Assembly (NCBI GenBank): GCA_016839785.1
Contig: JAEOTQ010000140.1
Coordinates: 1 to 35,705 of the forward strand
Source of the DNA: Candidatus Hodarchaeota archaeon
GTDB lineage: Archaea > Asgardarchaeota > Heimdallarchaeia > Hodarchaeales > Hodarchaeaceae
Length of the DNA: 35,705 bases
Reading direction: 5' to 3'
Shown here: piece by piece, positions 28,433 through 35,126 of the stretch
Position numbering within the stretch: position 1 is the stretch's first letter
Layout of the letters: every line of letters begins with the position of its first letter
Position numbers and translations under genes: made by a program
Notes under the pieces: model-generated
Told to the model about the DNA's origin: nothing
The model's database searches: none
What the model saw: only the letters and a program-made list of their open reading frames with translations

Positions 28433-29323
28433 TTATGAAAAAGGCTTTCTTTTCTGACCTCGGATCGTTAAACCAAGAATGATCACAAGCATTAATAGAA
28501 GAATGAAACCACCAATAACATTCAAAGGTTTTTTATTGGGAATCCTCACGTTGTTGTAATCTGCTATTATTTCTTCGACAGTCAACACTCGATTGTACAT
28601 ACGAATTTCATCCATACGACCGTTAAAATTACTATTACCCTCATAGTGATTCCCAATTACCACAGGTGCAGATGTTTTGCGAACAGGAATTGAAACTTGA
28701 GAAGCCGCTACTCCCACACCGTTTATGTAAAGCCTTATATGAGAGCCATCATAAGTTCCAGTAACAAAAGTCCAGGTATTAAATTCGATTCTTTCTGAAG
28801 CAAAACACGCAACCCAATGGGGCTCTCCATCTTGGCTTAAAGTTAACACTAGCCTTTGAGAATCTGTCTAAAGCTCCAGTATATATGCATCATCTAACAA
28901 CTGATTCCTTGTACGGTATTTTGATAAAATTTGATGCCAGCTACCAGTAGTTCCATAAATGTATATCCAAGCTTCAATGGTAAAAATTTCTACATTAAAA
29001 TTTGTGTCGTTTCCACAATTAACCCAATTTCCTTGTTCAAATTCAAGAGCGGTCCCTTTAATACCCTCTATCCAACTAGAGTCATAAATTATTCCATCAT
29101 TTCCTTTGTCAGAATGATCGTAAACAATATTCCCAAATCCCTCGTCAAATGTAAGATGAAGGATAAGTTCTTCAGATGAATTACCTAAGGAAAGAGATCT
29201 ATTACTAGAATTTCTAAAAATTGAAGAGTTAATGTACGTTGAGATGAAGGTTATAGATATTATAATGAGTATTGTCGCGTTAAGGGAAAAGCTTTTGGCT
29301 CGTGTCTTGGCCAAATAATTCAC
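28433..29323 (-). pseudogene. LamG/concanavalin-like surface protein interrupted by one in-frame TAG
   Basis: Two same-frame pieces make one laminin G-like domain. Piece one (29323-28868) has a hydrophobic N-terminal anchor (NATILIIISITFISTYI) and the first half of LamG (LILHLTFDEGFGNIVYDHS, FTIEAWIYI). TAG at 28870-28868 follows AYILEL. After six more sense codons piece two (28849-28433) continues with LTLSQDGE, WTFVTGTYDGSHIRLYINGV and FNGRMDEIRMYNRVLTVEEI, then a membrane helix (FILLLMLVIILGLTI) and a basic tail. Without the stop it is a complete 296-residue membrane-anchored binding protein. Mutation, sequencing error or UAG read-through are all possible. TTG 29314, preceded by AGGTGA, is an alternative start. 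The gene lies 21 bases after kynureninase. Confidence 0.8.
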
Positions 29324-33151: not shown

Positions 33152-33844
33152 TCAGTCTTTTTCTTCCTCTCCATAGTTAATAATGGTGTCTACATCAAAT
33201 CGACTCGTTGTTGGAAAACGGGGAATGACATATCGGAAGAAAGTGAAATTTAACATTATAAGTGATAGTATTATTAACCAAGGGGCGATTGGAGCTAAAA
33301 AAGATGCGAAGGCAGGGAAAACAAATGCAATAAGGCTTGTAGAACAACATACTACACCACTGGCTATGGCTGAAGTACCAGCAATCGCTGTGGAAACTGA
33401 AGAGACGGCAGATTGCTGTTTTGTTTTAGTATGAGCATTTTCTCTATTTGGATTATCATGAATTTTACAGTACGGCTTTGTCGTAAACAATCCTCCATAT
33501 ACAATACCTGAAAGCAGTGAAACAGCAAATAGGCTTACACCAGGATCAAAAGGAATGAATATCTTAAGGTGGGCTGTCACATTCCATGTTAATGAGCGCT
33601 TGTCAAGAAAAAACCCCTCTTGAAGTAGAAAATTTGAAGTAATACCTCCTGTTAAGTAGATCAATGCAAGAAAGATGAGCAGACCAAGCAGACCACTAAT
33701 AAGGTAAAATTTTCCCCAAAAGCCTCTATCTAGATCAAATTCTCTTTCCTTACGTCGATGTTTAATATTAATGAGGAGGAGTGGTAATAATAGAAAAAAG
33801 ACAGAAGGAAGGGATTTTTCAATTAGGAATTTCCAATCAATCAT
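33152..33844 (-). CDS. Membrane protein with a CC motif, unknown function
   Basis: This 230-residue protein has about five hydrophobic segments: 9-27, 46-66, 103-121, 160-182 and 184-204. The fourth starts with SGVVCCSTSLIAFVFPAFASF, where C166-C167 lie at the membrane boundary, reminiscent of MerT-type metal transporters and other CC-containing helices. A polar loop (about 123-150, with C126 and several His and Lys) precedes it. I know of no exact family. It begins four bases after the DUF3179 stop on the same strand, so the two make an operon and it may handle the same metal or redox substrate. The tail is acidic (YGEEEKD). Confidence 0.75.
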   Translation of the reverse strand: MIDWKFLIEKSLPSVFFLLLPLLLINIKHRRKEREFDLDRGFWGKFYLISGLLGLLIFLALIYLTGGITSNFLLQEGFFLDKRSLTWNVTAHLKIFIPFDPGVSLFAVSLLSGIVYGGLFTTKPYCKIHDNPNRENAHTKTKQQSAVSSVSTAIAGTSAIASGVVCCSTSLIAFVFPAFASFLAPIAPWLIILSLIMLNFTFFRYVIPRFPTTSRFDVDTIINYGEEEKD

Positions 33845-33848
33845 GAAT

Positions 33849-35126
33849 TCACTTCATTCTCCTTATTGGCAATCTCTTTATCAAGCGATAAACCACTACT
33901 AATCCGAGAGAGAGGAGGATCATATCTAATACCAAAAAACTTGGTACTGATGATGTTGGATCATCTGAGGGTACAAAAGTAGAGAGGTAAGATACTGACG
34001 AGTTTCCAGTAAAAACTTCAAGTGTAGGATACAGAGCTGTTGCTGCAAACCAGAACGCGTTGTAAGAAGGTAGTTGCTGTAGGGTAGATCCTGCGAATGG
34101 ACCGTCAATCGCCTTTCCAAGAAAATTCCAAATTGTTCCAGTTTGATCTTGGAATACAGGAAATCCTAAAGTTTCTGATTCCGGTAAATCTACTTCTATT
34201 TGAGTAAAGTGAAGAGTAGTGTTACCATCTAACTGGTTTGGACTACTGGAGTTGTAAGCAAGAACCAATTCATTTGTAGCGTCAAAAATAAGGAATATTG
34301 ATTGATTTGAATGAATATCATTCAGTACAGGTGTCTTTTCGAGTTCTTCAAAGGGGTACAATCGGACGTTATCGTCTATCTCAAGGACAAGAGTGAGTGC
34401 TTTAACATCATACATATTGTAGGGGGCTTGATCACGCTTGAACGATGTTCGAAACCAAATATCGATCCTGTCCCGATACCCAGGATAAGGATTTGAATTG
34501 TAAGTCTCGTCTGCGTACTTACCAGAGTCTCTATCCAGGATTACCGTATCTGGGTGTAAGGTTTTCCATGCTTGCTAGGTCGTTTCAGTGATTGGTTGTA
34601 TCGGGAGTTTTTCGCCGATTCTATCTCCCTTGAGGCCAACTCCTAGCATCTGACTCCATAAACTGCCAGAGGTACGATCGTAAAACACTAAATTGTTTTC
34701 ATAAAGCTTGCCTGATGTACCCAGAGTACTGCCTCCAATGCTCGAGCTGTTATAAAGGATACCAGTTCCTGTCAAGGGACAGAAAGTAATACATACATGC
34801 TCACCGTTAAATTCATCATTGATAATTTCATGCCAGTTAAGCATATCTCGAGGATATGCCCTTGCTTCTCCATTGATGACAACTCCGAGGACATATAGAC
34901 TATCTAGATCACCAGTATATTCTGTTTCGAATTCCGTGATTTCTAGGAAACTAGGATTCTCCACCGCAGGAATGCCGTCAGGTGGAGGACCACCCCCAAC
35001 TATTTCATCACAGGGAACTAGACAATCCTCTGCTTTCGCCATCGTGATCAAAGAGACTGTTAGGATAAGTAGAGAAGTTATCACTAGGATTTTTGTATAA
35101 AAAATTGGTTTTTTTTGGTTTCTCAT
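33849..35126 (-). pseudogene. DUF3179 exported protein interrupted by one in-frame TAG
   Basis: An N-terminal signal segment (ILVITSLLILTVSLITMAKA) leads into a DUF3179 domain: DGIPAVENPSF, VVINGEARAYPRDMLNWHEI, CITFCPLTGTGILY and FYDRTSGSLWSQM. Codon 184 is TAG (34577-34575), after ITETT. The frame continues without other stops: QAWKTLHPDTVILDRDSGKY, NPYPGYRDRI, then 34415-33849 to a C-terminal helix and basic end (KRLPIRRMK). In the family the residue after TT is usually Trp (TTWxxW), so TGG to TAG is the simplest change. Intact it would be 425 residues, membrane-anchored and outside the cell, with Cys and His possibly binding metal; the function of DUF3179 is not established. A second ORF-level product would start at ATG 34415. 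Confidence 0.82.

Follow-up and report, generated by a model that had tools for sequence, protein, structure and literature searches.

A probably recent nonsense codon at a conserved tryptophan position of a DUF3179 gene in a Hodarchaeota archaeon

The window analysed here is a stretch of 35,705 nucleotides, contig C100 of a draft Candidatus Hodarchaeota genome (4.04 Mb in 248 contigs, 84.5% complete, 3.4% contamination), whose nearest named relative found was Candidatus Heimdallarchaeota archaeon B3_Heim (~80% identity in the best segment). It encodes a small GTPase at 25102-24503, which fits an Asgard archaeon, and, near its end, a minus-strand frame of the DUF3179 family (PF11376; 33849..35126 (-)). 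Translation of positions 35126-33849 (-) gave a single product of 425 codons followed by a TGA stop codon, and its sole internal stop is the in-frame TAG at codon 184 (34575..34577 (-); ...ACGACC TAG CAAGCATGG...) to which an earlier note had drawn attention; a recount of the distance from this TAG to the next ATG gave the same 53 codons as the note. The read-through translation matched PF11376 with 242.6 bits (cut-off 27; E-value 7.8e-72) over profile positions 2-291 of 292, spanning the TAG, and the two halves matched separately and in register (2-133 at 4.6e-44; 136-291 at 4.9e-21), as expected from the note's statement that DUF3179 sequence stands on either side. Since the profile covers the read-through product and the halves are contiguous, we conclude that the frame is one gene and not two. 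Both halves of one domain lie in the same frame and a coding signal is present on either side of the TAG (frame-comparison scores of 9.2 and 6.6), which is beyond chance. Read off the translation, the protein has an N-terminal hydrophobic, signal-like stretch and a hydrophobic segment near its C-terminus with basic residues after it; no relatives of it were found in the PDB. Standard termination would leave an N-terminal piece of 183 amino acids (34578..35126 (-)) without the domain's second half or the hydrophobic segment near the C-terminus; the longest ATG-started downstream open reading frame (ORF) (33849..34415 (-), 188 amino acids) starts inside the domain.

The earlier note expected a tryptophan at this codon from knowledge of the family, and pointed out that TGG to TAG is one base change. 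Alignment with orthologues bore this out: codon 184 is TGG (Trp) in 12 of 16 aligned homologues, among them the closest relatives and all ten class-level homologues with a tblastn E-value < 1e-38, and Leu, Phe or Val is found only in weak or distant homologues, namely in four of the five weakest matches. The class-level homologues have an open frame. The copy in a genome of the same genus (G001; locus L009), ~80% identical here, has TGG at codon 184 within the motif TTWQAW, and comparison of the two copies gave dN/dS values of 0.085 and 0.103 on the two sides of the TAG, with synonymous sites near saturation. Because dN/dS is low on both sides, the stop appears to be recent relative to the split between the two species, and the absence of decay that the note had observed in the rest of the frame is upheld. 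The gene is held patchily: any DUF3179 match was obtained in 13 of the 97 genomes searched and, at the level of the genus, in only 3 of 12 (this genome, G001 and G009), the match in G009 covering 35 residues where the examined stretch ends. The G001 copy is split after codon 135 by an insert of ~460 bp (L009:430-891, contig C64) and also runs off the end of its contig. By eye, this insert shows no clear target duplication, and it matched no Rfam or Pfam family, leaving its interpretation as a transposon remnant unsupported.

We next consider how UAG is used in this genome, for which the stop analysis sampled 1.70 Mb (the window and stretches of 140 other contigs). TAG terminates 233 of the 1141 ORFs of at least 150 amino acids (20%). 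Whichever of the three stops ends the ORF, a further in-frame stop follows at a median of 9 codons. The tails also have similar coding scores in all three classes, and the sequence past TAG looks non-coding. UAG is a working stop in this archaeon, since terminal TAG is frequent and the tails behind it resemble those of the other two stops, and on the same terminal usage and tail scores a genome-wide reassignment of UAG was rejected.

Decoding of UAG as pyrrolysine, which the earlier note had listed among its options, would place this amino acid at codon 184. Some Asgard archaea have pyrrolysine (Sifarchaeia; PMC9723677), and PylS exceeded its cut-off in two of the 97 genomes (G081:C7, L151; G094:C65, L152), which belong to one genus of the same phylum outside the class. 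However, a search of the present genome for the pyl genes, as the note had proposed, placed all three proteins sought below their cut-offs. PylS (TIGR02367) reached 25.1 bits (cut-off 178), a level that ordinary synthetases reach and that control genomes match similarly, and none of 58 class relatives had a PylS match over the cut-off; PylD reached 21.6 bits (cut-off 150), and neither this genome nor any of 56 class relatives matched it at an E-value of 1e-20; and PylB reached 27.4 bits (cut-off 348). Moreover, pyrrolysine recoding in Asgard archaea has been reported solely in Sifarchaeia (PMC9723677), and the residue in DUF3179 relatives is tryptophan. With these negative searches and the Trp in relatives, pyrrolysine decoding is effectively refuted. 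The note's wider suggestion of UAG decoding is not supported either, given that TAG is a frequent true stop and that conserved genes are interrupted by TAA and by TGA at about the same rate, as described below.

A coding-signal scan of the 1.70 Mb returned 26 interrupted frames (TAA 11, TGA 9, TAG 6), in which the share of TAG compares with its terminal use at a Fisher p of 0.81; Pfam showed many of these candidates to be adjoining genes that share one frame. Interruptions that span a Pfam domain or a homologous alignment numbered five for TAG, four for TGA and four for TAA, with no significant excess of TAG (p 0.11-0.32; p 0.16 against terminal use). Two of the five TAGs lie in this window and were found because attention was already there. 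Neither the coding-signal nor the homology count in the 1.70 Mb thus revealed an excess of in-frame TAG over TAA and TGA within conserved genes. Besides DUF3179, the TAG cases are a LamG frame in the window (Laminin_G_3, PF13385; 28436..29323 (-), one TAG read through), an FMN reductase-like gene (TAG at L108:9357-9359 (-), contig C86), a NUDIX protein (L060) and an ABC ATPase (L045). TGA interrupts an FAD-binding subunit (L112), a PALP enzyme (L084), a UbiA enzyme (L180) and a repeat protein (L172), and TAA a glyoxalase (L076) and three self-homology cases (L045, L040 and L103). The LamG frame is the second interrupted frame of the window, and a window as long as this one is expected to include another broken gene in 24-42% of cases. 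For six interrupted genes (TAG 2, TGA 3, TAA 1) the orthologues tested in the same genus have no internal stop; private breaks by all three stops are thus a general feature of this assembly.

That several otherwise undecayed genes are each broken by one stop of any type, in a draft of 248 contigs with 3.4% contamination, raises the question of whether the base is real. If the base came from a sequencing or consensus error, or if the assembler picked it from a minority strain, the organism's gene would be intact with TGG at codon 184, and the lack of decay on either side of the DUF3179 TAG agrees with this. However, substitution errors in a short-read consensus are usually rare, and real loss suits a gene that few genomes of the genus have and that was broken separately in G001. 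We consider such an error possible, albeit rather unlikely. More probably, one private base substitution has turned a conserved TGG (Trp) codon into TAG and rendered the DUF3179 gene inactive in this genome or strain. With UAG as an ordinary stop, the product would end at residue 183, part-way through the domain and short of the C-terminal hydrophobic segment. The change would be recent, given that no decay is seen elsewhere in the frame, an undecayed frame being equally compatible with read-through. We infer here that the organism's own DNA truly has this base, as opposed to its having arisen in the consensus, and that the organism can do without the gene. Taken together, the most likely reading is that a gene of patchy occurrence carries a recent nonsense codon private to this genome, either real or introduced by the assembly, with a consensus error the less likely of the two.

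The read-through that an undecayed frame would also allow could come from an amber suppressor or near-cognate tRNA that partly decodes UAG as tryptophan and thereby yields full-length protein. Three of the five homology-spanning TAGs do lie at Trp positions of relatives: besides DUF3179, residue 152 of the LamG frame (28868..28870 (-)) is TGG (Trp) in both close relatives from G011, and the FMN reductase TAG corresponds to Trp in two distant bacterial homologues (motif GCFxCW), the orthologue in the same-genus G001 being open. Three of five is slightly above expectation, with a p of 0.01-0.26 depending on the assumed transition bias; TGG to TAG is one transition, and conserved Trp positions are easy to assign. 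The 18 tRNA genes found in this draft genome (RF00005) form a clearly incomplete set from which tRNA-Trp is missing too, which leaves room for a suppressor, as does the undecayed DUF3179 sequence past the stop. On the other hand, no CUA anticodon is present among these 18 tRNAs, the TAGs of the NUDIX and ABC ATPase genes are off Trp positions whereas the TGA of the repeat protein L172 sits on one, TAG is the normal terminator of 20% of long ORFs, and DUF3179 relatives use TGG. The sequence 3' of the DUF3179 TAG has no unusual or stable fold (z -0.29), and a structured read-through element was rejected. A Trp-inserting suppressor is unlikely, and we regard partial reading of this UAG as tryptophan as very improbable. 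Still more doubtful is the broader proposal that the lineage carries a tRNA-Trp-derived amber suppressor, or a tRNA-Trp that decodes UAG inefficiently, by which rare TGG to TAG changes would be tolerated and UAG would act elsewhere as a stop. If several Trp-position TAGs proved to be translated, this would be natural amber suppression as Trp, a truly surprising finding for an Asgard archaeon. Of the explanations listed in the earlier note, a recent nonsense mutation, strain variation and a base-calling error remain good, whereas read-through and UAG decoding are unsupported. The combination by which the note proposed to exclude recoding, frequent terminal TAG without pyl or suppressor genes, was largely what we found, the suppressor part being read from an incomplete tRNA set. 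Separately, a match to the aRF1 family in this genome (C235:15258-15848) is a 210-residue N-terminal open frame only, which covers model positions 2-194 of 403 and is below the cut-off.

Most likely, the DUF3179 TAG involves no new reading of the code. It resembles nonsense-type pseudogenes of prokaryotic genomes and draft metagenome-assembled genomes in that the frame is conserved apart from a single private stop, further genes of the genome are broken by any of the three stops and the gene is patchy among relatives, and it differs from them in nothing essential; intact orthologues are provided by the class-level homologues, and the copy from the same genus, though split by its insert, has TGG. 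With pyrrolysine decoding in Methanosarcinales and Asgard Sifarchaeia it shares an in-frame UAG in an archaeal gene and, with the latter, UAG as the end of ~20% of genes (PMC9723677), but here PylS, PylB and PylD are all below cut-off, relatives have Trp and the gene is not a methylamine methyltransferase. The same Pfam family, pfam11376, is listed as a selenoprotein family with a UxxC/T motif (PMC9312934), but the stop here is TAG and not TGA, and selenocysteine has been reported lost in Heimdallarchaeia, the class of the host (PMC9723677). The significance of the TAG is limited to annotation, where the DUF3179 gene calls for a flag as a probable pseudogene or as containing a suspect base. 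A membrane protein gene (33152-33844 (-)), which has no Pfam match, begins 4 bases past the DUF3179 stop, and its orthologue also lies behind the DUF3179 tail in G001 (L021), making the two genes a syntenic pair.
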